Source: a virus. From it: a DNA stretch of 57,239 bases. The notes beneath the pieces are model-generated. The model saw only the letters and a list, made by a program, of their open reading frames with translations. It was not told the DNA's origin and searched no databases. Shown piece by piece: positions 30,953-57,002 of this stretch (the stretch's first letter is position 1; each line of letters opens with the position of its first letter). Where the stretch lies: the IMG/VR virus record IMGVR_UViG_3300039159_000385, positions 1 through 57,239 of that record. The stretch is one strand, 5' to 3'. The position numbers were made by a program, and so were the translations under genes.

Positions 30953-31756
30953 TCAAAATCTCCACGCCAAACGGTGACGGTACTGCGCCGTCCCGGCCGA
31001 CATGGCCAGCGACGGATACATGCCGCGTGATCGGTCCACATCCGTCGCGTTCGGTGCGAACCAATCGCCGCCCGTCAGCCAGTGGTACACATTCGTGCGC
31101 ACACCGCTCGCACTGACGCGCGTGACACGCCACCGCGCCAGGTCGATGCGCAGATGTTCGCCCGCTGCAAACGTGTCCGTGGCCGGGACGAAAATCGTCA
31201 GCGAACCGTACACGATGCCATTCGCGCCGCGATACACGAGGACGCGCGAACCACTCCACCCACCCGGCATGGTGATAACGCCGAGCGACGGCAGTGTCCC
31301 GACGATGATCGGCGTCGGCGTCGTGGTCAGTGCAATGATCGTCGGGCTGATGTCGTAGCTCGCCGCATCATACGCGCGAAACTGTAGCGACAGCTTGAGC
31401 GACGGCAACACAAAATGTGTCGCACTCGCAAACGCTTCGACCGTCGCCCCCAGGTATTCCGCGCGCACCACCTTCGTCGCGCTATCCATGCGCGTGATAC
31501 GCACGATGCCCGTGAGCCAATCCGCGATCGCGTTCTGCTTGGCTTCGCGCTCCTCGATCGTATCGGCCCGCAGCAACGTGTGCAGCACCAGGTCGCGCGG
31601 CTCCGTGCGGGCGCGCGTGTTGGGGCGGCTCGCCATGTAGTCAACCACCGACTCACTCGTGCGATCCACGCGCGGCGTGTGAAACCAGTTATCAAACGGC
31701 GGCAACAGCGCGAGACTGAAATCGCCCAGGCTGCGGCCCTGCAACGTGATTGGCAT
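30953..31756 (-). CDS. Distal tail (Dit)-like protein
   Basis: 267 residues, encoded directly after the tip protein and two genes after the tape measure, the usual place of Dit. Typical elements are the LGDFSLALLPPFDNWFHTPR opening, RPNTRARTEPRDLVLHTLLR, EEREAKQNAIADWLTG, LQFRAYDAASYDISPTII and a second beta domain with VITMPGGWSGSRVLVYRG. Dit forms the ring joining the tail tube to the baseplate. TAATG overlap with the upstream gene. Confidence 0.6.
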   Translation of the reverse strand: MPITLQGRSLGDFSLALLPPFDNWFHTPRVDRTSESVVDYMASRPNTRARTEPRDLVLHTLLRADTIEEREAKQNAIADWLTGIVRITRMDSATKVVRAEYLGATVEAFASATHFVLPSLKLSLQFRAYDAASYDISPTIIALTTTPTPIIVGTLPSLGVITMPGGWSGSRVLVYRGANGIVYGSLTIFVPATDTFAAGEHLRIDLARWRVTRVSASGVRTNVYHWLTGGDWFAPNATDVDRSRGMYPSLAMSAGTAQYRHRLAWRF

Positions 31757-34080: not shown

Positions 34081-37000
34081 TCAGCTCGTGATCGCCACAT
34101 TACCCGTCTCGCGCGTGAGGCGCCCCGCCTGTCGTCCCAGAATCTCATCCACGGCCGGCGCCACCTGGCGCGCGATCGTGTTGCCCGCGTCACGCGCCGT
34201 CATGCCGTTGAGCGACGCACCCGACACGGTGACGTTGACCGTCACGCCGCCGCTTGATGCGCCACCCGATTTTTGGTCGATCGAGCGCAACACCAACAAC
34301 TGCGACAGACTGATGTCCACGAGGCGCATCGCCGTGCCTTCGCTGATCGTTTGCACGCCCGTGCGCGAGTAGTTCATCGTCACGCCACCGGCGCCGCTCG
34401 TGCGATCCGCCTGGCGCACCGCCTCCGCTTCGCGATCCGTAATCGCAGCCTGCGATTCGTTGAACGATTGCGCGCGCGACGACGCTTGAAAGTATTGCGC
34501 AATCTTGTCGTTCATCGCCATCTGCGCCGCTGTCAACTCCACACCCGGCGTCGCACGCGTGAACAGCGCGCGGATCGCGCCTTCGTCCATGCCACCGAAT
34601 CCGAGCAGTGATTTCGTGTCCGCGAGTTGTTCGTTGGCGTCGGCGCCGAACACCGCCCACTGCTGATTGAGCGTCGTCAGGTTGGCCTGCATGATGCGCG
34701 CCGCTTCTTCGGCCGCGAACGCCGTTTCGAGCAACGCCGGCGCCACGCTGTCGCGCAATGTTTTCGCGAACGCCTCAAACGCTTCGCTCGTGATCGTGCC
34801 TTCGTCCACCAACACTTTCGCCGCACGGATGCGCTGCTCGACGTTCGTCGTTTGCTCAAGCGCGCCCGCCGCAAACCGATCCGATGCACTGCCCGTCAGC
34901 GACGCCGCCGCGTTCGCTGCGTCCACCGCGAAACCTTCTTGCGAACGCAGCACGTTCTCGCGCGCTATCGCAACCAAACGCTCGCGCTTTTCGCCCCACG
35001 CGGTTTCAATCGCGGCAAACTCAGCATCCGTAATCACGCCCGCACTCAACAGGTCGCGGTAGCCGGCGAGCGCCTGCTGCATCTGCAACCCGCTCGACAA
35101 AATCGCGCTCTCGATCGGATTGCGCGCCAACTCGGCATTGAGCCCGGCGAGGCCATCCTGAAACTGCTGGCGCAGCCCGGCAATAAAGAGCGCCATTTCC
35201 GCGCCGCTGCGCCGGATCTCGTTGGCCGTTTCCGTCACCCGTTCATCATTCGTAAGTGTCGTGTCCTGCTGAATCGCGCGCACCGCAAGCGCCGTCGCCG
35301 TCGCCATGCCGGCCAACTGGCCCGCCACCGGGCCGCCGACGATCGCCGCGTCACGCTGGAACCCGCTCAGGTTGCGATCGGTTCGCGCGTTCGCGTCGGC
35401 CTGCGCACGCTGCTGCTGCACCTGTATCCATTCCAACTCTTGCGCGATCAACAACTGCGTCACATCACGATTCGCTTCGCGCGCCTCGGCCAACTCGTTT
35501 TCGTACTGGTTGGTACGCCGCGCATCCTCGGCGGCGCGCGGATTGTTGCCCGCGTCCAGGATCCGGCCCGCGTTGTTCGTATCGAACGCCACCGCCGCGC
35601 GCTGCGCCTGCGCCTCGGCCAGCGCCGCCGCCTTGTTGATTTCGTCGATTGCTTTCGTGTGGATCACCCCGCTCTTGCGCACCGCCTCCGCGTACGCGTC
35701 CGTCGTGAGTTCGCCCGCGTCGAGAAACACTTTCAGATTCGCCAGGCGATCCTGCAACTGCCGGCCGGCTTCCGCGATCGCCACGAGCGCGCCCTGCCCG
35801 GTCGCTTGGAGATAGTCGACGTTCAGCGCCTCCATGACGACCGGCACGAGCGCCTTGATCCGCGCCTCAAGCGCGTCCACCACTTGGGCTAGCCCTTGGG
35901 CGAACTTGATGAGCTTCACGCCCTCTATGTCGTTGGTTGCGTTCCCGTCGCGCAGCAGCCCCTGCCCGCGCGTCCGGATCGCATCGACGTTCTGGCGCGT
36001 CAGATACTCCTCGGGCCGGCGGCCCGCTTGGAGATTGACCCCCGTCGCGGCCGCCAACCCGGTGACCAACGTGCCCGCGTCGCGCGTCAGGGCCTTGATG
36101 CTCGCCTGCACGGAGGACAGCACCTCGCCCGCGCGCGCAAACTCGTCGAGCGCCCGGTTGAACTGTGCGGCCGCCGCTTCCATCTGCCGTGCCCGCTCCT
36201 TCGCCCGCGTCCCGAACACGTCGAACGCATCAGCGACCGCCGCCACGCCAATGATGACGGCGCCCACGCCGCTGAGCGCCGCCACCCCAGCCGCCGCGCC
36301 CGCGCCGCCGGAGAGGGCCTTCCCGACGCTCACCGCCTCGCCTGCCCCATTCTTGAGGCCTTGGAGTGCGACGACCCCTTGGAGCGCGCCGGTCGCGCCC
36401 TGCAACCCTTGGCGCGCCTCGGGCGAGAGTTGCCGCGCCAGGCTCGCGAGCTGCGTCAACACGCCGAGCCCCTGCGCGAGCGTCTCCACCCACTGGCCGG
36501 ATTCCTTGTTCACCTCGGCCTGCGCGTCCAGCACCCGGCGCTGCTGCTTCACGATCTCGTCAGCCATCGCGGTCTCGCGGGCGGCATTGATGCCGCCCGC
36601 GACCAGCGTGCCCGTGACGCGCTGCTTTTCCTCGAAATCGTCGATCTTCGCCTGAAACGCGTCGGCGCCTTTCTGGCCGAGCACGGGCACCAGGTCCGTC
36701 TGGATCGCACGGGCGCGCTCCGCGCGGTCGGCCTCGCGCGTCAACTCGGCGATGTCCTTTTGCACGGCCCAGAGCGTTTTCATTTTCTCGACCAACCGAT
36801 CCACGCGCACCCCGGTCGTTGCTTGCGCGGTCGCGTTCAGGGCGTCCTTCGCCGTGTCCGCCCACCCGGCCAGCTCGGCCAACTGTTCGCGGTACATGAT
36901 GAGCCCTTCGACGTGCAGCGCCTTCGCCGTGCGCGTCTCAATCTCGGCGGCCGACAGGCCCGCCTTTTTCCACTCCGCTTGCGTCGCCTTGAGCTTCGTC

Positions 37001-38526
37001 AAGAACTGTTCGAGCGACGTCACATCGCGGTAGCTGTCCATCAGCTCGTCGTTCGCGCGGCGCAGCCCTTTGGCTTCTTTCGCGGCCTCCTTCATGGCCT
37101 CCGCTTTCTTTTCGAGTGCGGCCGTGGCGGCGGCGGCCTCCCCCTCAAGTATCGCTTTGGTTTGCGACGCCGTGACTCGATTATCGACCGTCGGCTGCCG
37201 GGTCGATGGGTCGCTGAACACCTTGAACGGACTGCGAATACCCGGCCCCGTGGGCGCGAAGAAATCAACCGACCCCACAGGAATGATGCCCGTATTCGGG
37301 CGCGCGATCCCAAACCGCTCCAACGACTTCGAGGTCAGCGCCGCGCCTACGATCTGGTTCCGCGCGTTCGTGGTCACGGCGTCCATCGCTTTATTGACCC
37401 CCAACACCTGATCCTTTACGTTCCCCAACTGGTTTCCAAGCCGGCCGAGCGCCGTCGTGTGCCGGTCCCACCCCTTTTCAAGCCCCTTCGCGTCGAACAG
37501 CACCAACGCTTTCCCCAACTGCAACCACCCGCCCAACGCACCCAACGTCGGCCCGACGACTCCCGCGATTTCGCGCATGACCGCGACCAGCACCAGGTAA
37601 TGCTTGACCGTCGCGTCTAACAGGATCCCCGTGCGAGTCAGCGGATCCTCGTTTTCCTTGACCTTTTGCGCCATCTGCTTGAGCGCATCGGCGTACGCAA
37701 ACACGAGCGTCGTGTAGGCGGGCTGAAACACGGCGCCCAGGGCGACGCCCAGATCCTCCGTGTACCGCTGCGTCGAGCGCATCTGTTTGGCCGCCGAGGT
37801 CATGGACGCCTCGTACAGTCCCTCAAGCGTCGCGGCCTGCTTTAGCACCGAGTTCATGCGCGACTGTACTTTTTCCTTCGCCGTCAGCTCGTTCTGCGTT
37901 TTGTTCAACGACTTCGCGAGCGTCTTGTACCCGGCCTCAAACTGCACATTGATGCCGATCGTGCGCAGCACTTCCGTTTGCCCGGACACAATGCCGTGCG
38001 TCATGCGCGCGAGCGCGTCGGAGGAGTTGAGCTGGCCCACCACCGCGACATCCTGCGCCGCGCGGGCGAGCTTCGTCGCCTGCGTCAGATCGAGATTGGC
38101 CTGCATCATCTTGAGAAGCGATTGCCGCGACTGAAGCGCGCTGATGCCCGTCTTTTGCAGATCCTTTTCCAGCCCGGCGAGCTGCGGGCGACTGTACCCG
38201 ACGTTTCGGCCGACCGCCGTCAGCGCCACATCCAGCTCGTCGAACCGCGCCGCGAGACTGTTCACCTCGCGCACCATGCCGACGATGCCAAGCGCGGCCA
38301 TGACGACCGCCACCCCCTTGAACGCCATGCCGACCGACGCCATGCCCGAGGCGACCGGCCCAAGCGCGCGGTTGAGCTGCTGGGCTTGCCCCTGCACCCG
38401 CGTCGTGGCCTGCGTGAACTGGTTGGCCCCGGCCACGGCGCGCGACGCGTCAATGCCGAGCATCAACGTCGCGTAATCCGCGCCGGTGCCGCTCGTTTGC
38501 CCGCCGCTCCCGCTGAAATCAAACAT
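34081..38526 (-). CDS. Tape measure protein
   Basis: 1481 residues, the largest gene. Long helical stretches rich in Ala, Gln, Glu and Lys alternate with two hydrophobic segments, near residue 60 (MAFKGVAVVMAALGIVGMVR) and near residue 760 (VGAVIIGVAAVADAF). The N-terminal part (ATRVQGQAQQLNRALGPVAS; LVKMMQ-like helices; LNKTQNELTAKEKVQSRMN) is typical of tape measures. At about 0.15 nm per residue it would set a tail of roughly 200 nm. It follows the chaperone genes, as in lambda-like gene order. Confidence 0.92.
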   Translation of the reverse strand: MFDFSGSGGQTSGTGADYATLMLGIDASRAVAGANQFTQATTRVQGQAQQLNRALGPVASGMASVGMAFKGVAVVMAALGIVGMVREVNSLAARFDELDVALTAVGRNVGYSRPQLAGLEKDLQKTGISALQSRQSLLKMMQANLDLTQATKLARAAQDVAVVGQLNSSDALARMTHGIVSGQTEVLRTIGINVQFEAGYKTLAKSLNKTQNELTAKEKVQSRMNSVLKQAATLEGLYEASMTSAAKQMRSTQRYTEDLGVALGAVFQPAYTTLVFAYADALKQMAQKVKENEDPLTRTGILLDATVKHYLVLVAVMREIAGVVGPTLGALGGWLQLGKALVLFDAKGLEKGWDRHTTALGRLGNQLGNVKDQVLGVNKAMDAVTTNARNQIVGAALTSKSLERFGIARPNTGIIPVGSVDFFAPTGPGIRSPFKVFSDPSTRQPTVDNRVTASQTKAILEGEAAAATAALEKKAEAMKEAAKEAKGLRRANDELMDSYRDVTSLEQFLTKLKATQAEWKKAGLSAAEIETRTAKALHVEGLIMYREQLAELAGWADTAKDALNATAQATTGVRVDRLVEKMKTLWAVQKDIAELTREADRAERARAIQTDLVPVLGQKGADAFQAKIDDFEEKQRVTGTLVAGGINAARETAMADEIVKQQRRVLDAQAEVNKESGQWVETLAQGLGVLTQLASLARQLSPEARQGLQGATGALQGVVALQGLKNGAGEAVSVGKALSGGAGAAAGVAALSGVGAVIIGVAAVADAFDVFGTRAKERARQMEAAAAQFNRALDEFARAGEVLSSVQASIKALTRDAGTLVTGLAAATGVNLQAGRRPEEYLTRQNVDAIRTRGQGLLRDGNATNDIEGVKLIKFAQGLAQVVDALEARIKALVPVVMEALNVDYLQATGQGALVAIAEAGRQLQDRLANLKVFLDAGELTTDAYAEAVRKSGVIHTKAIDEINKAAALAEAQAQRAAVAFDTNNAGRILDAGNNPRAAEDARRTNQYENELAEAREANRDVTQLLIAQELEWIQVQQQRAQADANARTDRNLSGFQRDAAIVGGPVAGQLAGMATATALAVRAIQQDTTLTNDERVTETANEIRRSGAEMALFIAGLRQQFQDGLAGLNAELARNPIESAILSSGLQMQQALAGYRDLLSAGVITDAEFAAIETAWGEKRERLVAIARENVLRSQEGFAVDAANAAASLTGSASDRFAAGALEQTTNVEQRIRAAKVLVDEGTITSEAFEAFAKTLRDSVAPALLETAFAAEEAARIMQANLTTLNQQWAVFGADANEQLADTKSLLGFGGMDEGAIRALFTRATPGVELTAAQMAMNDKIAQYFQASSRAQSFNESQAAITDREAEAVRQADRTSGAGGVTMNYSRTGVQTISEGTAMRLVDISLSQLLVLRSIDQKSGGASSGGVTVNVTVSGASLNGMTARDAGNTIARQVAPAVDEILGRQAGRLTRETGNVAITS

Positions 38527-43307: not shown

Positions 43308-44306
43308 TCAGGGAATCGCGTTTGCGCCGAACATCGCCATATCGGCCGCCACCACGCGCATCTCGTACGCCAGATCCGACTGAATGTAATCGGTCCGCGC
43401 GGGACCATCGCGCCAGCGGGAAATCACTTCCCCGAGGTTCGGACCCTGACCGGGCAGGAAGCCCGTCCACGCGAACGTGTAGAACGCGCTCGGCAGCATG
43501 ATCGACGGGCGCTCCTGCGTGTACGAGAGCAGGAACCCCTTGGAGCCGATGAACGAAATGGCGTCCGGCGAGCCTTCGGCGGCCGTGTTCTGCACCGCGT
43601 TCATCACATTCACCTCGTCCACCTCGAACAACTGCGCGAGCGTGCGTGTGTTGACCTCAGCGGGTGCGCCCGGCGTCTGACCGTACTTGATACGGTCCAC
43701 GATTTCCGGGTGATCGACCAGCGCGTCATACACGCCGCGCTGCAACGTGAGCTTGTTGGGCTCGAAGCCGGTCGCTTCCAGCATCTCGCGCTTGATGGTG
43801 CGAATGACGCGGATCGGCACCGACGCCGTGTCCGTGAAATGCAGGAACTGCGAGGCGTTCGGCGCTGCCGCCACGCCGGTGCGGTTGAAACTCCACACGC
43901 CGGGCTTGAAGAACTTGTTCACAAACTCAAGCTCGCGCTGAAGGAGCCCCTGCTGCGTGAGGAACACCGTGGTGTCGCGGTCCAGGTTGACCGGCGGCGC
44001 CTGATTCACGCGGTCCTCGTCGGCGATCGGCTTCGCGAGCGCGTACGTCTCCGCGAAATACGTCTGCGAGTTGTCGATCTGGAAATCCGCGACCGTCGCG
44101 CGCGTGCCCTTGGCGCGCTTGCGCATGGCGCTGCGCATGAACGCGCCCTTCGGGTACGTGACGTAGCGGTCGCTCTGCTTCGACACCGGCACCGACCCCG
44201 CCAGGCGGCCAGCGACGAACGCCGATGCGCTCTGAATGTACGCGATCGAGAGATTCGTCAGCGGCGTGCTCACGTAAATCTCGTTCCCCTGCGGTGAAAA
44301 TGGCAT
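43308..44306 (-). CDS. Major capsid protein
   Basis: 332 residues. The pattern EIYVSTPLTNLSIAYIQSAS, FVAGRLAGSVPVSKQSDRYV, YPKGAFMRSAMRKRAKGTRA, SQTYFAETYALAKPIADEDR, FVNKFFKPGVWSF, QRGVYDALVDHPEIVDRIKY is that of HK97-fold major capsid proteins encoded after scaffold and decoration genes. It is flanked by its own strong terminator hairpin. No proteolytic delta domain is evident, in keeping with a separate scaffold gene. Confidence 0.85.
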   Translation of the reverse strand: MPFSPQGNEIYVSTPLTNLSIAYIQSASAFVAGRLAGSVPVSKQSDRYVTYPKGAFMRSAMRKRAKGTRATVADFQIDNSQTYFAETYALAKPIADEDRVNQAPPVNLDRDTTVFLTQQGLLQRELEFVNKFFKPGVWSFNRTGVAAAPNASQFLHFTDTASVPIRVIRTIKREMLEATGFEPNKLTLQRGVYDALVDHPEIVDRIKYGQTPGAPAEVNTRTLAQLFEVDEVNVMNAVQNTAAEGSPDAISFIGSKGFLLSYTQERPSIMLPSAFYTFAWTGFLPGQGPNLGEVISRWRDGPARTDYIQSDLAYEMRVVAADMAMFGANAIP

Positions 44307-44384: not shown

Positions 44385-44789
44385 TTACGCGGCCGTCGTC
44401 GGGAGCAGACCCATCGGGATCGTGAGCATTTCAACTGAGCCGTTCGCGACGCCCGCCGTGAGGGCGATGCCCACCGCGTAGGAACCGACGACGGTCGCGG
44501 CGGACACAGAGGTCGCGGCGGCATCACGCACCGTGCCGTCCGTGTGCGACTTGAGGAACGCGCCGGCCGTGACCGTGGCGCTCGCGATAACGCGGTGAAT
44601 GTTGCCCACCCCGCCCAACGTGACCGCGCGGCCGCTCGCGCCGCCTACCACGATCGGGAGTCCAAACTGGCCCAACCCGGCCAGCACCCAGCCCGTCGAG
44701 GTCGGGCGTGCAATGCGTCCTTCCATGCCGGTCAGGTCGGCGCCGGCAATCCCACTGATCGGCGCGACCTGGAGAAGTTCATTTGCCAT
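44385..44789 (-). CDS. Capsid decoration / DUF2190-like protein
   Basis: 134 residues, beta-rich: MANELLQVAPISGIAGADLT, GLPIVVGGASGRAVTLGGVG, IHRVIASATVTAGAFLKSHT, SYAVGIALTAGVANGSVEML. Its place between scaffold and capsid and the pattern of small barrel-like strands fit head decoration or cement proteins. Confidence 0.65.
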   Translation of the reverse strand: MANELLQVAPISGIAGADLTGMEGRIARPTSTGWVLAGLGQFGLPIVVGGASGRAVTLGGVGNIHRVIASATVTAGAFLKSHTDGTVRDAAATSVSAATVVGSYAVGIALTAGVANGSVEMLTIPMGLLPTTAA

Positions 44790-44853: not shown

Positions 44854-45876
44854 TTAGCGGTTGTCGGGCGCCTGATCGCGGTCCGACGCCATCACACGCG
44901 CGGCCAGCTCGGGGTGCAGATCGAGCGCCTTCGCGTACGCGGCGTGGAACGTCGAGCCGCTGGCCGCCATCGCCGCCTTGGCGATCGCGTCCAGCTCGGC
45001 CGCCGCACCCGTCGCGGGCGCCGAGCGGGTCCGCCCAACGCTCTTGAACAGTTGCGCATCGTCGGCCGCCGCGCGGGCGAACGCCGTGACGCTCGTGAGC
45101 GCGGCGCGCTCCGTGTCGTCGGCCTTCGCGAGCAGCGTCATCAGGGCCGGCGCGTGATCGGGCGTCACCGGCACGCTCGCAAACACGTTCGCAAACTGCG
45201 TCTTCAGCACCGCGTCCTTCTCGGCCTTTTCCAACAGCGCGAGGCGCGCGCCGAGTGCTTCGTTCTGCGTCGTCAGCTCGGCCGACTTCGCAATCTGTTC
45301 CGCGACACGCGCATTGACAGCATCGTCGATTTGCTTCTGAATATCGGCCGGCGCGGGCGCCGTGGTGGCAGTCTGGGACATCGTGTGGGACTCCTGGCCG
45401 GTTGCGGCCACAGGGACAAGAGGAACAGCGTGGGCACCCGCGACGGCCGGAGCCGTCTTCGACATCACCGCCGACTCGCTCGCCGCCATCGCGGCCGCTT
45501 CGGCGGCTTTCTTCTTTTTCTTCGCGGCCATTTCTTCGGGCGAGCAATAGGCGTCGCCGGCCTTCTCGACCGACCCCAGCGACGGCATGGCCGTTGCGGC
45601 GTCCGCGAGCCCGGCGTCGATCTCGGCGTGCGTCTCGGCGTCGGATGGGCCACCGGGCGCCATCTTCGCCAGCACGGCCGTCATGGCGCGTTTGATGCCG
45701 CTCAGGAACCCGCCGGTCGCATCAGACGCCGCGTCGTCGGCGCTCTTGCGCGCCAGAATGTCGGCGTACTGATTGCCGCCGGACGGCACCAGACTGATTT
45801 CCCCGATTACCAAGCTGTCGAGCATGGACGCGGTGACCGTCGCGCTGTCCGGCATCGTTGTGTTGGGCGTTGTCAT
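44854..45876 (-). CDS. Scaffold protein with possible nested start
   Basis: 340 residues. N-terminal part: SMLDSLVIGEISLVPSGGNQ, followed by an Asp/Ala-rich region and a Lys cluster (EEMAAKKKKKAAEAAAMAAS). The C-terminal half is a long coiled coil (DDAVNARVAEQIAKSAELTT; LGARLALLEKAEKDAVLKTQ), typical of head scaffolds. An internal ATG (MSQTATTAPAPADIQKQIDD) at about residue 165 has GGAGT 9 bases upstream, so a short scaffold could be made from within, as with lambda Nu3. Late-type element 34 bases upstream. Confidence 0.7.
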   Translation of the reverse strand: MTTPNTTMPDSATVTASMLDSLVIGEISLVPSGGNQYADILARKSADDAASDATGGFLSGIKRAMTAVLAKMAPGGPSDAETHAEIDAGLADAATAMPSLGSVEKAGDAYCSPEEMAAKKKKKAAEAAAMAASESAVMSKTAPAVAGAHAVPLVPVAATGQESHTMSQTATTAPAPADIQKQIDDAVNARVAEQIAKSAELTTQNEALGARLALLEKAEKDAVLKTQFANVFASVPVTPDHAPALMTLLAKADDTERAALTSVTAFARAAADDAQLFKSVGRTRSAPATGAAAELDAIAKAAMAASGSTFHAAYAKALDLHPELAARVMASDRDQAPDNR

Positions 45877-45956: not shown

Positions 45957-47042
45957 CTACGGGGCCACCATCTCGCGTGGCAACGACACCGCGCGACGCG
46001 TCGCGCGGCCGCCAATCGAAAACATCTTGAACGTGCCCGCCTCCGTCGCCTTCCATGCCGACGCGTGACTCACGTGCATCGTGATCGCGAAGCCGTGCGG
46101 CGTGTCGGCCGGCAGCCCCAGCACCGCCTTGACCACCGGCGTCACGATCAGCCCCTCGATCACCTGGCCGACGCGCACCGGCTCCATGACGCCCGCCGCG
46201 TTCGGGAGCTGCATGTGGACGATACCGCCCGTGCGATCGGTGCGCATGTAATCGTGCGCGGCCTTCGTGATGTCGGCCATGCGGATCACATCGCCCTGCC
46301 GATCGACCACAATGCGGCCCTGCGCATCGCTCACCACCGACGCCCACCCCATCGCCAACTGTTGCGCGTCGGCCTTGCGCACCTCGCCCGGCCCCATTCC
46401 GCGACGCAACGCCGCAATGATGTGCGGCGTGCGCTGCTCCAACTGCGCCGCGATCGTGAGCTGTTTCACAATCATCGCTTGCGCCTCCGGCGTGCGATCA
46501 TTCTGCATCAGCGTCGCGATCTGCTTGGCAAACACATCGCCGCCGATCGGGCCATGACGCTCCGGGCCGAACCGCAACGCGAAGTCGGGCAACGGCACGC
46601 GCTGCCACTGCACACTGGCGCCGTCATACGTGAGCGTGATGTGCGGCTTATACGTCTCGTCCGGGTAGCTGCTCACCGCGCCCGCTTTTTGCAGCGCCGC
46701 GTACCGCGCACCGAGTTGGTCGTCACGCACATGCAACACGACCGCGCCCTTCGAGCCGAGCGGCGCGATGTGCGTGAACTGCTCCGGGTAGATCGTGTGT
46801 CCCCACCGCACGGAGTGCTCGCCCCGTGTATCGTCGCGCGTCTCCGCGCGCACGCTCACCGTGGAATGACAGAGCGTGATGTGCGGATGCGCATCGCACG
46901 CAATGCCATGCTCCGCGCACCACGCGCGCAACTGTGCATGGTTCTCCAACGGGCGCCCGATGTAGCACCCGGCGTCTGCCTTCGTGAGCGAATCAATGCG
47001 CATCGTGTGTGCCGGTGTGAGTGTGTGAGTGCGCGCGTTCAT
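45957..47042 (-). CDS. Acb1-like 2H phosphoesterase fused to XkdF-like prohead protease
   Basis: 361 residues, two domains. Residues about 25-155 form a 2H phosphoesterase with both catalytic motifs: H54-I-T56 in HPHITLCHS and H134-I-T136 in KPHITLTYD, plus CYIGRPLENHAQLRAWCAEH and IAPLGSKGAVVLHVRDDQLG. This is the pattern of anti-CBASS Acb1, which cleaves cyclic oligonucleotide alarm signals. Residues about 210-361 match XkdF-type phage proteases: QQLAMGWASVVSDAQGRIVV, DRQGDVIRMADI, VVKAVLGLPADTPHGFAITM, FSIGGRATRRA. The protein would mature the head and also blunt host immunity. The start is uncertain (ATG 47042 or 47003); neither has a clear ribosome binding site. Confidence 0.75.
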   Translation of the reverse strand: MNARTHTLTPAHTMRIDSLTKADAGCYIGRPLENHAQLRAWCAEHGIACDAHPHITLCHSTVSVRAETRDDTRGEHSVRWGHTIYPEQFTHIAPLGSKGAVVLHVRDDQLGARYAALQKAGAVSSYPDETYKPHITLTYDGASVQWQRVPLPDFALRFGPERHGPIGGDVFAKQIATLMQNDRTPEAQAMIVKQLTIAAQLEQRTPHIIAALRRGMGPGEVRKADAQQLAMGWASVVSDAQGRIVVDRQGDVIRMADITKAAHDYMRTDRTGGIVHMQLPNAAGVMEPVRVGQVIEGLIVTPVVKAVLGLPADTPHGFAITMHVSHASAWKATEAGTFKMFSIGGRATRRAVSLPREMVAP

Positions 47043-47050
47043 GTGCGTGC

Positions 47051-47383
47051 TTACGCGCGTGTCGTCGGGCGCGTCCAGCGATCGCGCTCGTGCGTGGTGT
47101 CGCCGTCATCGTCGTCGTCGTCGGACTCGACCGGCATCCCCGTGTGCAGGAAGTGCGCGAGCATGTCCTGCGTCAGATCCACCGCCATGTGCTCCGGCAT
47201 CCCGTGCGCGATCGCGCCGACGTAATACTGCGCCGTCATCGCGCCCAGGTGATACGACGCGGCACCCGCTTGCTCCAACGCCGACGCCATGCGCGCTGCA
47301 ATGATTTCAAGCGCGCGTGCGTCCTCGTTCGTCGGAATCACCATCGGCCGGGGCCGGCCGCGTGGGCGGCCGCTGCGACTCAT
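47051..47383 (-). CDS. Hypothetical protein, 110 residues, acidic C-terminus
   Basis: Unknown. Arg/Pro-rich N-terminus (SRSGRPRGRPRPMVIPTNE), a central helix ALEIIAARMASALEQAGAAS with a Tyr/His-rich stretch, and a run of Asp (SDDDDDDGD). ATGA overlap with the methyltransferase fragment upstream. Place between portal and protease suggests a head-related role. Confidence 0.5.
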   Translation of the reverse strand: MSRSGRPRGRPRPMVIPTNEDARALEIIAARMASALEQAGAASYHLGAMTAQYYVGAIAHGMPEHMAVDLTQDMLAHFLHTGMPVESDDDDDDGDTTHERDRWTRPTTRA

Positions 47384-47586
47384 GCAAGCCCCAACGCGGC
47401 CGCGTCCACCGCGAGGAGCCACTGCGCGTCTATCACGTTGCCCAGCAAATCGACGCCCGGCCAGCGCGCGCGCAGCACGCCGCACGCGTGCGGCTCAATC
47501 TCGGCGTGTGCCAGGCATGTCATGCCGGCGCGCCGTAATCCCATCGACAACCCACCCGCGCCGGCGAACAGCTCGACGTAGCGCAC
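47380..47586 (-). CDS. N-terminal fragment of a C5 DNA methyltransferase
   Basis: 68 residues, about two-thirds identical over its first 56 residues to the full enzyme at 9475-10932. It keeps motif I (FAGAGGLSMG) and the ribose-binding EIEPHA region, but stops before the catalytic PCQ motif and target domain. It is not obviously decayed: a GTG start overlaps the portal stop (TAGTG), the stop overlaps the next ATG, and no frameshift is seen in it. It could be a recombination remnant or a domesticated SAM-binding peptide. It cannot methylate alone. Confidence 0.75.
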   Translation of the reverse strand: MRYVELFAGAGGLSMGLRRAGMTCLAHAEIEPHACGVLRARWPGVDLLGNVIDAQWLLAVDAAALGLA

Positions 47587-49034
47587 TACCGCACCTTCCG
47601 CTTGCCTACGCGCGGCGCCTTCGGCACGCTCGGTGCTTCGGCCGTGTTCGTGTCGGGATCCTCGGGCGCGATCGCACCCGCGCCCGGCAGCTCGCGCGTC
47701 GTCGCTTCGTCACGCGGCGGCAGTCCGGCATACGTGCGCAGGAACGTTTCGAGGTTGTCGTCGGGCCGGATCACGCCGACTTGGCTCAACGCTTGCACAA
47801 AGCCCGCGATCGCCGGCAACTCCGCTTCTTCGACATCGCCCGCGACTAGCATCGGCTGGAACGCCGGATCCCCGCCGCGACGCGCCCACCACCGCTTGAG
47901 TGTTCCCGTCATCTCGGCCCCGAACACTTCGACGAAGCCGTAGAACGCGAGCGTGAACAGTTGCGTCTTTGTTTTGCCGAGCGCGAACGAACCCGTCGCC
48001 TGCTGCCCGAGCAACATGAAGTCCGCGAGCACCGCGCCCGCCATGCGCCGATCAAGGCGCTCGATCAGCGGCGTCATATCACCCGAGCGGCGCCCGTCGG
48101 CTAACAGATACTGCATCGTGAACATCGGCGCCTTGCTCTCCGGGTCTACATCACTCGGCAACACCACCGCGCTCTTGCGATCGCTCGACACCGCTTCCAC
48201 CACGGCCAGGATGCTATTGAGCTGCGCCTTCTCGTCGGGCGACGCGGTGCGCGACAGCAACCGATTCGGAACCGTCGCCACCACGAGCCCCGCCTGACGC
48301 ACGGCGGCGCGCGCTTCGGCTTCTTCGATGACGCGCTTCTTCATCCACGTGGTGTAGCTCGTGCGCAGCACCGAGCGCCCTTCCGGGTTGTCGAGCTTCG
48401 CCGTTGTGCGAAACAGCGCGAGACGCGAACGCGGGATCAACACCTCGTAGTTTTCGCCGACATTCACCTCGCGGTACGCGTCCTGCTGCCACATCCCCAC
48501 GCACTCGCCCGTGTCAATATCGAACTGCCAGCGCGCGACCGTCTGCTGATCGCGCAGCGCCATCTTTCGGATCACGAGCCCCTGCACCGGGTCGATGCCG
48601 TACACCACTTCACACGGCGCGTACCCATACTGAAACATCGTCGCCGCTTCGCCCACCACCTCACTGAACGGGCGCTGCATGTCGGTGAACAGCATGGCGG
48701 TCGTTTGCTCGCGCACCGCGATCCCTTCGGGTGTGTCGCGTACCGCCGCCGGCAGCTCGACCTTGAACGGCACGCGGCGCAGCATCATCTCAAACGCGAA
48801 CATGATCCCGCCCAGGAGCGGATCGTTGTTCGCCATTTCCGTGTACACGCGCGCCGCACTCAAGCCGTTCAACTGCGGCAGGAAGTCGGCCATGATGTAG
48901 TCACCGCTGCGCCGCAACCCGGTCGAACCGAGCTCCGTCGTCACGTCGCTCATCTCGCGGGTTTCGCTCGTCACACCACTCGGGGGGAGCGCCGGGCCGC
49001 CTGTCGCCGGCGTTATCGCATAGGGGGAAGTCAT
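47586..49034 (-). CDS. Portal protein
   Basis: 482 residues. The pattern LRRSGDYIMADFLPQLNGLS, ARVYTEMANNDPLLGGIMFA, EMMLRRVPFKVEL, FQYGYAPCEVVYGI, KMALRDQQTVARWQFDIDTG, TYTT-MKKRVIEEAEARA, VVLPSDVDPESKAPMFTMQY and DRRMAGAVLADFMLLGQQAT is that of DUF935-like/Mu-gp29-type portals. The C-terminus is disordered (Pro, Glu, Arg). The second copy of the late-type element lies 34 bases upstream of the ATG at 49034, which supports this start. Confidence 0.85.
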   Translation of the reverse strand: MTSPYAITPATGGPALPPSGVTSETREMSDVTTELGSTGLRRSGDYIMADFLPQLNGLSAARVYTEMANNDPLLGGIMFAFEMMLRRVPFKVELPAAVRDTPEGIAVREQTTAMLFTDMQRPFSEVVGEAATMFQYGYAPCEVVYGIDPVQGLVIRKMALRDQQTVARWQFDIDTGECVGMWQQDAYREVNVGENYEVLIPRSRLALFRTTAKLDNPEGRSVLRTSYTTWMKKRVIEEAEARAAVRQAGLVVATVPNRLLSRTASPDEKAQLNSILAVVEAVSSDRKSAVVLPSDVDPESKAPMFTMQYLLADGRRSGDMTPLIERLDRRMAGAVLADFMLLGQQATGSFALGKTKTQLFTLAFYGFVEVFGAEMTGTLKRWWARRGGDPAFQPMLVAGDVEEAELPAIAGFVQALSQVGVIRPDDNLETFLRTYAGLPPRDEATTRELPGAGAIAPEDPDTNTAEAPSVPKAPRVGKRKVR

Positions 49035-49078: not shown

Positions 49079-49138
49079 GCATAGCCTGCGGCATAGCCTG
49101 CGGCATAGCCTGCGGCATAGCCTGCGGCATAGCCTGCG
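49079..49138. repeat. 12-bp minisatellite GCATAGCCTGCG
   Basis: Five tandem copies between the end of the terminase gene and the portal promoter-like element. It is followed by a duplicated 13-bp segment (TCACTCGTCGCTC) that carries the terminase stop codon. The gap 49035-49156 has no gene. Confidence 0.85.
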
Positions 49139-49156
49139 GCCTCTCACTCGTCGCTC

Positions 49157-50977
49157 TCACTCGTCGCTCTCGGCGTCCATCTCCCCGAACACCGCGACGC
49201 CGCCGAAGTGTGTCGAGCGGCCGAGCTGCTGGAAGCGATCGGCCGGGATCACGCCCGGCACCGCCAGCGCCTCGGACTCCGTGTAGCCGATGCTCCGCAC
49301 CTCCACATCCACGCGCCCGCCGATCGCGTCGGAACACTTGACGAACGCGCCGACGGTCGAGTCCCAATAGTCGTCGTGCGCCGCGTAGGGAAACCCACAG
49401 ATTTCCTCGAACAGCTCCGCGTTCCAGTCCCCCACCACATAGGCCACGTTCCGCGCCTCGGCCTGATCCCGCAGCGGCTCACCGCGCAGCTCCTTCGACA
49501 TGCCCAGCGGCGCCTCCGTGCGCACCCGGTGCCCGGCCAGCTTGCCCACGAGGGCCTTCGTGCGATCACGCCCACCGCCCCCGCTGTCGCGCTCAAGCCA
49601 GGTCGTCACGAAGTTTTGCCCGAACCGCGCCGCGTCGTCGGCCGTGACTTTGACGATATGGTCATCCCGCTTCTTCGGGCTCATCTGGCCGCCCGTCGCG
49701 TCGGCAATCACGAACAGCGTCAGCTTACTGCCGTTCTCGGCCGTGTCGCTCCCCGCGTCCATCGTCACCGCCAGCATCAGCGTCGAGCGCGTAAAGTCCG
49801 GGTCGTGCTCCGTGGCGTCCTCCTTCGCCGTCGCCGCCAAATCCCAATAGCGCACCGCCGCGAGGATCCCCACCTTCGGCATCGCGTGCAGCGCGCGGAA
49901 CCACTCGCGTTTGAGCAGAATACCGGCCTTCGGCTTCGGCCGCGCTTGATACATCGCCGACCAGTAGTAGGCGCCCATGCTCTGCCGCTTTCTGAGCAGC
50001 ACCGTGCGCGGGTACCGCTCCTCGCACAGCGCCTCCCCCTCGGCGCGCGGATCGGGTTCGAGCGTACACGTGGGCGGCACGAAAAACTTCTCACTTGTGT
50101 CGCGCAGCGCGTCGAGCGCGATAATGTGCCACCGCTCCGGGTACGTGCCCTCGCCCGACGTTTCGCGCCGGAGCAGCCAGTTCGCCAGGTCATCCTCGTG
50201 CCACGGCGTCATCACGATCACGATCGACGCGTTTGGCTCGGCGCGCGTCGAGAACGTGCCCTGCCACCACTCTTTTTGCTTCTCGCGGATCGTGACCGAC
50301 TGCGATTCCTCGGAGTTTTTGAGCGGGTCGTCAATGATCCCCAGGTGGAACCCCTTACCCGTGATCGGCCCCCCCACGCCCGCCGCCCACATGCCGCCCG
50401 ACGCGGCCGTGCCGATCGTGCGCACCGCCGTCTCGTCGCGCAGCGCGCCGAGCTTCCCGCCCGCGCGCACGAAGTTGTCGCGCGCCGAGCGCGCCAGCAT
50501 CCCCGCCAGGTCCGACCCGTAGCTACAGAGTCCCACCCACCGATGCGGGAAGCGGTACTGGTAGTAGGCCGAGAACAGGCGCGACACCAGTTCCGACTTC
50601 CCGTGGCGCGGCGGCGCGAAGATCATCAGACGCGACAGGCGGCCCTCAATCACATCCATCAGCCGCGCCTCGATCCGCTCGCCATAGTCGTACCAGCGGT
50701 AATCCGGCTTCGCGCGCGCCACAAACTCGCGGAACGGAATCGGATCGGGCGCCGGGGCGACATGCGCCAGCAGCCGACCCATTTCGATCTTGAACGCCGG
50801 CGGCAGGAGCGGCAGCAGCACCCCCATGCGCGCCAGGTGCGCAGCACTAAACTGCCGACGCTCTAACTGGCCGATCAAATCCGACGCCTCCACCAACGCC
50901 GCGCGCGTCGCCGCCTCGGCCGCCCGGTCCGCCTCGCGCCTCTGGGCCTGCCGCCCCGCCGCACTCACCCGCACCAT
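49157..50977 (-). CDS. terL: Terminase large subunit
   Basis: 606 residues. ATPase: Walker A APPRHGKSE (121-129), Walker B HLGIIDDP (211-218), coupling motif IVMTP (254-258). Nuclease: RYWDLAATAKEDATEHDPDF with Asp at 379, and downstream acidic residues near DYWDSTVGAF. The N-terminal 80 residues are an Ala/Arg-rich extension that may contact the small subunit. It packages DNA into the prohead. It follows the small subunit gene by two bases. Confidence 0.93.
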   Translation of the reverse strand: MVRVSAAGRQAQRREADRAAEAATRAALVEASDLIGQLERRQFSAAHLARMGVLLPLLPPAFKIEMGRLLAHVAPAPDPIPFREFVARAKPDYRWYDYGERIEARLMDVIEGRLSRLMIFAPPRHGKSELVSRLFSAYYQYRFPHRWVGLCSYGSDLAGMLARSARDNFVRAGGKLGALRDETAVRTIGTAASGGMWAAGVGGPITGKGFHLGIIDDPLKNSEESQSVTIREKQKEWWQGTFSTRAEPNASIVIVMTPWHEDDLANWLLRRETSGEGTYPERWHIIALDALRDTSEKFFVPPTCTLEPDPRAEGEALCEERYPRTVLLRKRQSMGAYYWSAMYQARPKPKAGILLKREWFRALHAMPKVGILAAVRYWDLAATAKEDATEHDPDFTRSTLMLAVTMDAGSDTAENGSKLTLFVIADATGGQMSPKKRDDHIVKVTADDAARFGQNFVTTWLERDSGGGGRDRTKALVGKLAGHRVRTEAPLGMSKELRGEPLRDQAEARNVAYVVGDWNAELFEEICGFPYAAHDDYWDSTVGAFVKCSDAIGGRVDVEVRSIGYTESEALAVPGVIPADRFQQLGRSTHFGGVAVFGEMDAESDE

Positions 50978-53496: not shown

Positions 53497-54345
53497 CTAC
53501 AGTGTGAAGGTTGACGCTTGGCGCATCGCGCGCTCTTGCGCCTTGAAACTGAACTCGTACCGCAACAGCTCGGCCTCGATCGCCGGAAACAGGCGCAACA
53601 CCCGCGCGTAGTCGTCCGGGTAGTGTTTGCGCAGCGGCGCCAGGAACCGATAGTCCAACCCGTCACCGCTGAACGAGCGGCCGAAGATGCGGTAATCCGT
53701 CAGGAGCCGCGTCTGCGTCTCAATCAATGCCTGCCGCAGCCGCTCGCGCGACCAGTCGAATACCGGATACAGCACGTTGCGCGTGCGCTGGTACACGCCC
53801 GATTTCTTCAAGCTCGCCGCGCGGAAAATGGAATCGTCCATGCGGATCCCGACGACGGTCGGCACGGACTTGCCCCACCCCAGGTCACGCCGCACTTCGC
53901 GCGAAATCGAATCGAACGACGGCGGCTCGGTCGGCTCCCACCGATGAATCAACGGGATGCGGTGGAACGGCTGATACGCATAGAAGCCGAGGCGCGTCAT
54001 AATCCCGCGACCCTGCACACGCGTGATCCGCGTATCCCATAGCGCCTCGTAGTACGCCAGCCCCTCCTCCATGATGCGCAGGCCGGGCACAATGTACATG
54101 TGGTACAGGTGCAAGTCAGTAAACCCCGCCTTTCGCAGCGCCAGGACACACCCTACCGCGTCCTTGCCGGCCGAGAACGACACGAGCGCGCGGCCCTTGT
54201 AAATGTCGCACAGAATCGGCAGCGCCTCGTCGCTCGACATCTCGTGAATGTTCATCGGGACATCCACCCCGAACCGGGGCGTCACCCGGCCCTTCTGCAC
54301 AATCGTCGTCGGCGCCGCGCCGCCCGCCTTCGATCCCTCACCCAT
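53497..54345 (-). CDS. PAPS reductase-like PP-loop protein
   Basis: 282 residues. A PP-loop SFSAGKDAV (56-64) in the place of the SGGKDS nucleotide-binding loop, followed by LALRKAGFTDLHLYHMYIVP, HRIPLIHRWEP, VPTVVGIRMDDSIFR, PVFDWSRERLRQALI and RIFGRSFSGDGLDYRFLAPL. This is the phage branch of PAPS-reductase/ATP-pyrophosphatase-like enzymes, which may modify nucleotides or DNA rather than reduce sulfate. There is no Dnd-type partner here. It overlaps its upstream neighbour by 8 bases. Confidence 0.72.
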   Translation of the reverse strand: MGEGSKAGGAAPTTIVQKGRVTPRFGVDVPMNIHEMSSDEALPILCDIYKGRALVSFSAGKDAVGCVLALRKAGFTDLHLYHMYIVPGLRIMEEGLAYYEALWDTRITRVQGRGIMTRLGFYAYQPFHRIPLIHRWEPTEPPSFDSISREVRRDLGWGKSVPTVVGIRMDDSIFRAASLKKSGVYQRTRNVLYPVFDWSRERLRQALIETQTRLLTDYRIFGRSFSGDGLDYRFLAPLRKHYPDDYARVLRLFPAIEAELLRYEFSFKAQERAMRQASTFTL

Positions 54346-54973
54346 CGCACACCTCACCCTCGACACGCGTCGCGTACCACGCCGCGTCACGCGGTGTGTA
54401 CAACATGCCCACGCCCTCGCCCTCGCGCACCACGAGCGGCCCGGCACGCTCGGATTCCAGTAGATCGACCACCGCGTACAACTCCGCGAGCGACAGCCCC
54501 TTGAACAGCGCGGCCGCCTCGGCATCCCGCTCGGGGAACGCCATCGACGCAAACGCCCACAGCATCCCCACCTGCTTGTCACTCGAAAACGACACGCCAT
54601 CGCACGCCAGGCGCAGCTTCGCCAGCCATGCCGGATCAAGCGCCCCGAGGCGCACCCGCAGCGCCTCGCTCACCACATCAAGCATTTCGTAGTACCGCAG
54701 CAAGTCCCGGCGCACCACCGACGGCGCCGGCATCAGCGATGTCGCCCGCGCGCCCACCGGGATCGCAAAGTCGGCCAGGCGCAGCGAAATCACCGCATCC
54801 CGCGCCAGCAGCTCCACCGGCGACACCTCGCCCGTAATGGGTGCCGCACGCGGCAATCGCTGCGGGCGCACCGACACCACCGGGCGCCCCTTGCCCGATG
54901 GTTTTCCGGCTCGTTTCTTCGTTGTAGTTTTCATACCGTACAAGATAGGCCCCGTGTCGGTTGTCGTCAACAT
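54338..54973 (-). CDS. Hypothetical protein, 211 residues
   Basis: Unknown. Basic N-terminus (KTTTKKRAGKPSGKG) then a mostly helical domain: RDLLRYYEMLDVVSEALRVR, LGALDPAWLAKLRLACDGVS, VGMLWAFASMAFPERDAEAA, LSLAELYAVVDLLESERAGP. It is coupled to the PP-loop gene by an 8-base overlap, suggesting joint function. An alternative start is the ATG at 54934. Confidence 0.55.
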   Translation of the reverse strand: MLTTTDTGPILYGMKTTTKKRAGKPSGKGRPVVSVRPQRLPRAAPITGEVSPVELLARDAVISLRLADFAIPVGARATSLMPAPSVVRRDLLRYYEMLDVVSEALRVRLGALDPAWLAKLRLACDGVSFSSDKQVGMLWAFASMAFPERDAEAAALFKGLSLAELYAVVDLLESERAGPLVVREGEGVGMLYTPRDAAWYATRVEGEVCDG

Positions 54974-54977
54974 GGCA

Positions 54978-55487
54978 TTACCCTACGTGAACGACGCGCA
55001 ACAGGCGCATCTCGGTGTAGCCGGTCGAACAGTCGGCGCCGTCACGCTCGCCGTGCTCGTAGTGGTCGCAGTGCGACTCTCTCGTGTCCGGCATCGACGC
55101 CCACTCCGCGAACGTGCGTAGCTCGGCCGTCTCACGCGGCTCGGCGTCCAGCCACTCGCCCGTCACCCGATCCGCACGCACCTCGAACACCGGGTAGAGG
55201 CGCGGAGGCATGAACAGCGACAACGGCAACACCGTGCGCGACCACCCCGAGGGGATGCCAGGCTTGTCCACGCCGTTGTACTGCACCGGCACCTCGCGGC
55301 CCACCACCTCGCGCATCGTGGCGACCGCGTAGCGCAGCGCGTCCACCCCCTCACTCACCGGCACGCTCGACGCGCCGTCCAGCTCCACGTAGTTGAAACG
55401 GGGCACCACCATGTAGCGATTGGGCAAATACTGGCCCTCCTGCGGCTCGAAGCGCACTAGGATGTTATTGGCGTCCGTCGGTTGCAT
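54978..55487 (-). CDS. Hypothetical protein, 169 residues
   Basis: Unknown. The N-terminal part is beta-like (NNILVRFEPQEGQYLPNRYM, VPRFNYVELDG), the middle YAVATMREVVGREVPVQYNG, and the C-terminus has His and Cys residues (SHCDHYEHGERDGADC) that could bind metal. ATG overlaps the DUF3560 stop (TGATG). Confidence 0.5.
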   Translation of the reverse strand: MQPTDANNILVRFEPQEGQYLPNRYMVVPRFNYVELDGASSVPVSEGVDALRYAVATMREVVGREVPVQYNGVDKPGIPSGWSRTVLPLSLFMPPRLYPVFEVRADRVTGEWLDAEPRETAELRTFAEWASMPDTRESHCDHYEHGERDGADCSTGYTEMRLLRVVHVG

Positions 55488-56272
55488 CACTCCCCCCCTC
55501 CAATCAGCCCGGCCAGGCGCCGGGCGTGCCACTCGGCACTATTGCCGAGCTTGCGCGTGAACCCGCCCCGCGTCGGGCTCCACAGGAACCCCGCCGAGCG
55601 CATCAACTTGTAGTGCTCCGTGCTCAAGCGCGCCGGGAACACCAGCGTCACCCGGTTATCGTCCGGGTCGATCGTCAGCACCACGCCGCCGGCCAGCTCG
55701 TCCCGGCTCGCCTCGACCGCCCGCGTCTCCTCAATCACCTCGACCCGCTTGGCCGCCGCGCGAATCCGGGCGCCCACGTTCGATAGCGACCAGGCCGGGA
55801 AAGGCTGCTTCTCCCACGAATACGCCGCCTCGATCACCGGCGCCCACGCCGCCAGCCCCTTCCCCGTCGCGGCGATCAGCCCGGCGTCGTCCTGCTTCTT
55901 CCACGCCGCATTGGCCGCCTTCATCTGGTCCCGTTTCCGTTCCAGGTCCGTCCGCTTGTCCGTCAACTTCTCCACCGCCTCCGGGTCGTCCGACGAAATG
56001 CCGGCCGACCCGACCGACGCCGCGCGTCGTTCCAGCTCGTCGGCCTCCTTCGCCCGGTCGCACGCCTTCCGCAGCCGGGCGTCCGACTTCGCCAGCGCGC
56101 CCCGGTGCCGCTTCTCGGAATGGTGCCCTACGAGAATCGGCTGCCCGAACGGGATCCCCGCCACAGCGTCGCGGCTGGCCTGAAACGCCGCGTCGCTCTC
56201 GGCTCTCGCCCGCTCGGCCGCCCGTTCCAGGCGCGCCCGGCGGCGCTCTTGGGTTGCCTCGTAGGCGTTCAC
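55487..56272 (-). CDS. DUF3560 family protein
   Basis: 261 residues matching the DUF3560 pattern known from plasmids and phages: EATQERRRARLERAAERAR, VAGIPFGQPILVGHHSEKRH, RGALAKSDARLRKACDRAKE, ELERRAASVGSAGISSDDPE, RKRDQMKAANAAWKK, AAYSWEKQPFPAWSLSNVGA. The GHHSEKRHR region is its hallmark. The C-terminal 80 residues (LTIDPDDNRVTLVFPARLST and HYKLMRSAGFLWSPTRGGF) form an extra domain also common with DUF3560. Function unknown. GTG start (GTGA). Confidence 0.8.
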   Translation of the reverse strand: MNAYEATQERRRARLERAAERARAESDAAFQASRDAVAGIPFGQPILVGHHSEKRHRGALAKSDARLRKACDRAKEADELERRAASVGSAGISSDDPEAVEKLTDKRTDLERKRDQMKAANAAWKKQDDAGLIAATGKGLAAWAPVIEAAYSWEKQPFPAWSLSNVGARIRAAAKRVEVIEETRAVEASRDELAGGVVLTIDPDDNRVTLVFPARLSTEHYKLMRSAGFLWSPTRGGFTRKLGNSAEWHARRLAGLIGGGE

Positions 56273-56691
56273 GGCGCCACCTTCGCCGTCAACGCCGCCA
56301 GGGTCGCCGCCACTTCCGCGCTCGCCGGGTCCACCAGATACGCAGCCGCCAGCGCCCACGCGTCCGTCAGGATCGCCGCCGCCACGCTCCCCGTCGCCTT
56401 GTCGCTCCGCCGCGCTGCGGCTCGGAGCACCCGGCTCAGCGGCTTGTCGCGCGGCTCGGGGCAAAACATCACGAACGTTTCCGACTCCAACCCGCCAACC
56501 GGCTGCGACACCCGCGCCGGCTGCACATGCAGCATGATCCCGCGCCGCACCGAGTGGTACACCCGTACGGTTACCGCCCGCGTCCCCTCGTCGGTTACGT
56601 CTCCCGCGTCGAGCACCCGCACGCGCCAGGTCGGCCCCTCGCCCCGCATCGACTGCTCGACGCGCCACGGCGCCACGCTCCCGGCCATCAT
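56269..56691 (-). CDS. Hypothetical protein, 140 residues
   Basis: Unknown. The N-terminal half is beta-like (PTWRVRVLDAGDVTDEGTRA, VTVRVYHSVRRGIMLHV), the C-terminal half helical and Ala-rich (LSRVLRAAARRSDKATGSVA; AYLVDPASAEVAATLAALTA). ATGATG start overlapping the upstream TGA. Second gene of the accessory module. Confidence 0.55.
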   Translation of the reverse strand: MMAGSVAPWRVEQSMRGEGPTWRVRVLDAGDVTDEGTRAVTVRVYHSVRRGIMLHVQPARVSQPVGGLESETFVMFCPEPRDKPLSRVLRAAARRSDKATGSVAAAILTDAWALAAAYLVDPASAEVAATLAALTAKVAP

Positions 56692-57002
56692 CGGGCGGCC
56701 CGCTTCGTGCCCAGCAACGCATTGGCCGCGCGCGCCGTGTCGAACAGCCAGAACGAAAAATCGTCCACGCCCTCGAACACATTCGGGTGCGCCTTGAGCG
56801 TCGCCTGAAATAACTCGCGCTGCGCGAACAGCCACGACGCCGCCGCCAGGCCCATCGCCGCGTCGGTCGTCGCGGCGCCGTACTCGGCGCCGATCGAATA
56901 CTCGTAATAGTGCTGGTGCCGCACCACGCCCGCGTCTTTCAACTCGTGCGGAAACAGCAACCGCCCGCGTCGGCCAGGTGCCGCCTTGCTCGTTTTCGTC
57001 AT
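56688..57002 (-). CDS. Hypothetical protein, 104 residues, first gene of the accessory module
   Basis: Unknown. Basic start (TKTSKAAPGRRGRLLFPHEL), then HQHYYEYSIGAEYGAATTDA, GLAAASWLFAQRELFQATLK and FSFWLFDTARAANALLG. The ATG at 57002 has GGGGTGGG just upstream. A divergent copy of the 18-bp promoter-like element is 71 bases upstream. The last plus-strand GCG trinucleotide of the window (57032-57034) lies between that element and this gene. Confidence 0.55.
   Translation of the reverse strand: MTKTSKAAPGRRGRLLFPHELKDAGVVRHQHYYEYSIGAEYGAATTDAAMGLAAASWLFAQRELFQATLKAHPNVFEGVDDFSFWLFDTARAANALLGTKRAAR

Follow-up and report, generated by a model that had tools for sequence, protein, structure and literature searches.

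Prohead proteases work within procapsids. Acb1 has so far been studied as a free enzyme which is made after infection; the proteins of T4 and of the Erwinia phage FBB1 (PDB 7t26, 7t27) stand alone and comprise 140 to 152 aa. The roles of the ligand-contacting residues of T4 Acb1 have been described (PMC9117128). The P1 protein DarA serves counter-defence, is cut by the prohead protease, retained in the head and ejected (PMC12810830), and the internal proteins of T4 as well as Alt are also cut and retained (PMC7411985). Polyvalent proteins with an assemblin-like peptidase as their C-terminal part were described by Iyer et al. in 2017, along with 2H domains fused to MuF and portal proteins, for which a role as RNases or as degraders of defence nucleotides was proposed (PMC5512222). 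Head-borne 2H polyvalent proteins are already known, and by these portal and MuF fusions and their possible action against nucleotide signalling the counter-defence idea pursued here is partly anticipated. However, the study names 2H on MuF and portal without mentioning XkdF and predates the identification of Acb1. Enzymatic cargo on a portal-proximal head protein is also familiar from the MuF polymorphic toxins (PMC5576092).

The gene analyzed here is located on the minus strand of a viral contig of 57,239 bases (the whole stretch, in the following called the window) and joins an Acb1-family domain to an XkdF-type prohead protease. It shares with T4 and FBB1 Acb1 the 2H fold, the HxT/HxT tetrad and the conserved tyrosine (Y12 in T4), and with T4 Acb1 also an aromatic residue at the position of F107. 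What separates it from these stand-alone enzymes is the fusion to a head protease and the lack of W74, E141 and W147. It fits the polyvalent layout, a conflict-related enzyme domain fused to a virion-processing domain, with the effector first and the virion-assembly peptidase at the C-terminus. DarA and the T4 internal proteins, which the prohead protease cleaves and which remain in the head until ejection, are close parallels for the fate proposed below, but they are encoded by separate genes while the Acb1 domain of the window is covalently part of the protease. The MuF toxins, on the other hand, act on the cell and are carried by MuF, whereas the window possesses a counter-defence enzyme on the protease.

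Genomic Context and Coding Potential

The head module of the window, all on the minus strand, comprises the following genes:

49157..50977, minus strand: terminase large subunit, TerL (PF03237)
47586..49034, minus strand: Mu-type portal protein (PF06074, E = 1.3e-20; phrog_113), without an Acb1 domain of its own
45957..47042, minus strand: Acb1-XkdF fusion gene (361 aa; alternative start possible at Met14, position 47003)
44854..45876, minus strand: next gene downstream of the fusion, in the place of a scaffold gene (weak phrog_17741 match only; role inferred from position)
44385..44789, minus strand: small gene at the decoration-protein position (assigned by position; no Pfam match)
43308..44306, minus strand: major capsid protein of the phage_cap_E type (phrog_1005, E = 1.4e-72; PF03864)

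With this order (TerL, portal, fusion, scaffold, capsid), the fusion gene occupies the customary location of the prohead protease between the portal and the scaffold and capsid genes. Small open reading frames lie between portal and fusion gene. One of them (47380-47586, minus strand; 68 aa, beginning with VELFAGAGGLSMGLRRAGM) looks like a truncated C5 cytosine DNA methyltransferase of which only the N-terminal stump is left. Between the TerL and portal genes, a 12-base tandem repeat occurs five times (49081-49140; GCCGCAGGCTAT on the minus strand). A PAPS-reductase-like gene (53497-54639) and a primase-like gene (55487-56782), both on the minus strand, lie upstream of the head genes. Two other minus-strand reading frames of 1481 aa (34081-38526) and 772 aa (31756-34074) gave no PHROG match at E 0.001.

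The fusion reading frame starts with ATG, ends with TAG and has no internal stop codon. Its third-position GC content is 0.82-0.90, and the codon-position GC is alike in all three sections of the gene (Acb1, linker, XkdF) and agrees with that of the nearby TerL, portal and capsid genes; an overlapping plus-strand reading frame of 455 aa does not exhibit this pattern. From the domain matches, the uninterrupted frame and the codon-position GC it therefore follows that this is a real gene and a true in-frame fusion. A chance or mis-assembled reading frame was ruled out by the codon-position signal and by independent fusions on other contigs. No ribosome site sets Met216, close to the domain boundary, apart as an internal start for the protease. 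In PHROGs, the protein matched phrog_755, labelled 'RNA ligase' like T4 57B, and phrog_1530, a family which contains XkdF and carries the label 'DNA methyltransferase'.

The Acb1 Domain

46542..46970, minus strand: Acb1-family 2H phosphoesterase domain, residues 25-167 (PF23474; PDB 7t26 by sequence and fold)
46875..46883, minus strand: first HxT motif, H54-I-T56 (aligned to H44/T46 of T4)
46635..46643, minus strand: second HxT motif, H134-I-T136 (aligned to H113/T115 of T4)

Both H-I-T motifs had been attributed in the initial annotation to a 2H enzyme of the Acb1 pattern, which was borne out by the profile searches. With hmmscan, residues 25-167 matched PF23474 (Acb1) with 53.9 bits at a cut-off of 27 (E = 2.1e-14), a genome-level search gave 56.2 bits for Acb1 at the same location, and hhalign of the domain against an alignment of phage Acb1 proteins gave 98.7%. 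By contrast, the generic 2H models of Pfam remained below their own cut-offs (2_5_RNA_ligase2, 20.6 bits). The sole PDB match by sequence was 7t26, Acb1 of FBB1. A structure predicted from an alignment of 12 fusions had a mean pLDDT of 73, with most of the Acb1 part at 85-93, and a pTM of 0.45, the relative placement of the two domains being uncertain. The structural comparison with Acb1 suggested in the same annotation agreed with the sequence data, since the top PDB matches of this AlphaFold model in Foldseek were the Acb1 entries 7t27 and 7t26 (E about 2e-6 and 3e-6, TM 0.70-0.73 on target), followed by another phage Acb1-type phosphodiesterase and only later by LigT. Among predicted viral structures, the matches were Acb1 proteins and XkdF proteins. 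Since the matches to LigT and RNA ligases were weaker than those to Acb1 in sequence and in fold, a generic enzyme of either type was rejected.

The alignment with T4 Acb1 placed Y27 and Y126 of the window protein at the positions of Y12 and F107, but A93, G164 and V170 at those of W74, E141 and W147. Due to the absence of these three ligand residues, the substrate range may differ. The W74 and E141 positions are also variable in other head-fused Acb1 domains, thus their loss is not peculiar to the window copy; the lid tryptophan, however, is retained in several head-fused domains and absent from this one. Altogether, the window domain is divergent, with a Pfam score that is low for the family and a very long branch on the Acb1 tree.

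Linker and Protease Domain

46377..46541, minus strand: linker, residues 168-222 (predicted structure)
45996..46376, minus strand: XkdF-type (Peptidase_S78_2) prohead protease domain, residues 223-349 (PF14550)
46215-46217, minus strand: conserved His276, presumed catalytic, invariant in 12 fusions
46017-46019, minus strand: conserved Ser342, presumed catalytic, invariant in 12 fusions

The XkdF-like protease which the initial annotation had placed behind the Acb1 domain is near-complete. PF14550 matched with 34.8 bits (cut-off 24, E = 1.9e-8) over profile positions 8-124 of 126, and His276 and Ser342 are intact. In the predicted model, the linker begins with a low-confidence stretch (171-183) which is followed by two helices (185-204 and 206-213). 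A cut within the linker would part the two domains; no cleavage motif or site was identified.

XkdF proteases in general (L010-L089) have highly variable N-termini comprising ChaB, TUDOR-like and other unassigned parts, suggesting that the N-terminus of XkdF is a general attachment site for additional domains. These proteins contain the same protease as the window and differ in their N-terminal additions. The same protease is also found in Rhizobium phages, where it is annotated 'DNA methyltransferase/prohead protease'. None of the 80 nearest XkdF loci contained Acb1.

Acb1-XkdF Fusions in Other Phages

To collect relatives, an alignment of Acb1 sequences, both protease-borne and related ones, was used to scan viral contigs, and the hits were classified by HMMs; a scan with the window protein alone returned none. 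Eighteen reading frames with both Acb1 and XkdF were obtained, 14 after removal of near-copies and including the window (examples are L239-L242, L246, L249, L252, L263, L274 and L301). In 12 aligned fusions, H54, T56, H134, T136, His276 and Ser342 are all invariant although the other proteins are only 23-30% identical to that of the window, a pattern expected under selection on both activities. Wherever the independent contigs extend far enough, the gene order is TerL, portal, in some cases MuF, fusion and, further on, capsid. One contig (L238) even encodes Portal_Mu, Acb1 and XkdF in a single reading frame of 851 aa, and two (L283, L221) encode NUDIX-Acb1-XkdF proteins.

The domain is not invariably an active enzyme, as can be inferred from several motif losses. 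L221, in which the second histidine is lost, and L231 have HxT/NxT, and gp24 of the cultured Caulobacter phage Sansa (L321:33-1223), which is related to L274 over the full length (28% identity, E = 8e-34), has lost both HxT motifs while the two-domain layout is retained. To judge from these losses, the 2H domain of Sansa gp24 is dead or repurposed and no working Acb1. An HxS motif was seen in several portal-Acb1 proteins of Xanthomonas and rhizobia. None of the cultured phages searched possesses an intact Acb1-XkdF fusion.

In the tree of Acb1 domains, a single origin of the XkdF-linked domains was not rejected (p-AU 0.645), with weak support and a long window branch. In the tree of XkdF domains, the window protease lies among unfused XkdF proteins, within a starred set of 19 unfused proteases and itself, its nearest unfused relative (L010) being 45% identical, and a single clade of fused XkdF proteins was rejected (p-AU 0.006). 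Therefore, Acb1 and the protease were joined, separated or exchanged more than once. Since the Acb1 tree allows a single origin, the case for repeated joining comes from the protease tree and from the variety of partner families.

Acb1 on Other Head Proteins

The scan of viral contigs described above, in which the PHIT motif was used, yielded 80 loci, a sample chosen by likeness to the window protein and not a census, in 71 of which Acb1 is fused to a portal protein, a head protease or MuF. Its protease partners belong to three Pfam families (XkdF, Peptidase_S78 and DUF2213). Acb1 lies N-terminal to Peptidase_S78 in L210 (Xanthobacter) and L264, and N-terminal to DUF2213, which PHROGs lists as head maturation protease, in L208, L222, L228, L260, L299 and L307. 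Acb1 is also located C-terminal to portal proteins of three families (PF06381, PF06074 and PF04860), on either side of MuF (L243, L254, L257, L302) and between portal and MuF (L271). The three protease families and three portal families point in the same direction as the protease tree, towards events of joining, separation or exchange on more than one occasion.

Portal-Acb1 fusions (Phage_portal_3, PF06381, phrog_146) occur in phiPSA1, RHEph04, Ssp-JY40 and Pam3 and have in common with the window that Acb1 is tied to a head protein in a phage of 40-60 kb. However, their Acb1 is situated at the C-terminus of the portal, whereas in the window it is at the N-terminus of the protease and the portal is devoid of it. 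In the Pam3 portal structure (PDB 8hds; 621 aa, 12 chains), the phage Acb1 profile matched residues 466-619 (E = 5e-37); Pfam confirmed Acb1 in the corresponding gene (L319:1606-3471), whose motifs are HxT/HxS. Hence, in a phage of solved structure the portal is formed by a portal-Acb1 polypeptide. This is the closest, if indirect, physical evidence on packaging, albeit from an architecture other than that of the window. Among the cultured phages listed, those with portal-Acb1 have genomes of about 40-60 kb, while T4-like and jumbo phages encode free Acb1. In bacterial genomes the family is rare, with 1 of 369 and 2 of 385 above cut-off, centre genomes counted. One protein combines Acb1 with an ADP-ribosyltransferase (ART-PolyVal; L261:3251-4657). 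Acb1 was also found within phage proteins of more than 2,200 aa (L250:1334-8500 and L317:1250-8053), one of them with a methyltransferase domain, which by their composition are putative giant polyvalent proteins.

Discussion

The most probable role of the fusion, to which we assign a probability of about 0.6, is that of a head-borne polyvalent effector, an anti-CBASS enzyme which would be cut from the head protease and would clear the signal from assembling or incoming heads. Acb1-family 2H phosphodiesterases cut CBASS cyclic oligonucleotides, and the N-terminal domain of the window protein is predicted to do the same. Joined by the helical linker to the XkdF-type protease and encoded among the late head genes, it would be brought into the procapsid by the protease part, and a proteolytic cut within or close to the linker would most likely part the two domains there. 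The freed Acb1 might then clear the signal in the cell assembling the heads, or it might be kept inside the head and enter the next cell together with the DNA, provided that it is packaged and ejected. The link between structure and counter-defence drawn in the initial annotation is strengthened by the recurrent joining of Acb1-family domains to head proteins across phages. This repeated attachment suggests a counter-defence that forms part of the virus particle and is perhaps delivered by it.

It is conceivable, though rather unlikely, that Acb1 is an ordinary cytoplasmic anti-CBASS enzyme which became fused to adjacent proteins when stop codons were lost, gains only late co-expression from this and undergoes neither packaging nor ejection. 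Acb1 of the T4 type is a free enzyme, and in every state the domain is near the same portal-protease junction, be it at the C-terminal end of the portal, on the protease, on MuF, in one reading frame between portal and protease (L238) or alone as in Edwardsiella phage ZHS, where it lies between TerL and portal. However, mere proximity does not match the many different head-protein partners in both orientations nor the predominance of fused over merely adjacent genes in the loci scanned, and the deposited structure of phage Pam3 has portal-Acb1 as its portal. It is improbable that the domain targets RNA or 2′-5′ and 2′,3′-cyclic nucleotides outside CBASS, with a function as RNase, in RNA-end processing or in other signalling. 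In its favour are the breadth of the 2H superfamily, the LigT structures that come after Acb1 among the fold matches, the RNase role which Iyer et al. (PMC5512222) considered for 2H on MuF and portal, and the lack of three base-contacting residues of T4 in the window copy. Against this, Acb1 ranks first among the families in sequence as well as in fold, and nine of nine further Acb1 homologues cut 3′3′-cGAMP and cAAA (2022, PMC9117128).

Sansa gp24, with its two-domain layout and dead HxT motifs, and the highly variable XkdF N-termini would also be compatible with a 2H domain that has turned into a structural or targeting part of the protease, similar to a propeptide or a scaffold-binding part, for which catalysis is dispensable. 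This is very improbable for the window protein, as HxT/HxT is invariant in the 12 divergent fusions and the nearest unfused XkdF proteins (L010) manage without a 2H domain. The head-borne anti-CBASS enzyme might, on the other hand, be coupled to the alarm itself. As related in PMC11312562 and PMC12409349, a prohead protease was published in 2024 as an activator of type I CBASS. Acb1 might thus be carried on the very protease that triggers the alarm and, after autocleavage in the procapsid, also be shipped in the virion, disarming CBASS prior to gene expression. We regard this extension as possible but doubtful; no report of an XkdF protease as CBASS trigger was found in the literature searched.

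No published description of Acb1 joined to a capsid or prohead protease was found in the literature searched, which included few of the subscription journals. The repeated link between Acb1 and capsid proteases and its possible tie to the sensing of prohead proteases appear to be new. If Acb1 is a built-in part of portals and proteases in many phages of 40-60 kb, counter-defence would be coupled to head assembly and the anti-CBASS enzyme may arrive with the particle. Two questions would then become testable: at which stage, entry or assembly, CBASS is disarmed by small and temperate phages, and whether phages were driven to arm the head protease because CBASS senses this protein.

The analysis also calls for a correction of annotations. 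Gp129 of Roseobacter phage DSS3P8 (L002:3989-4441) and ZHS_4 of Edwardsiella phage ZHS (L003:2116-2715) are annotated 'prohead protease' but consist of an Acb1 domain only. They were rejected as cultured examples of the fusion, and the label 'prohead protease' of these Acb1-only genes is a misannotation.
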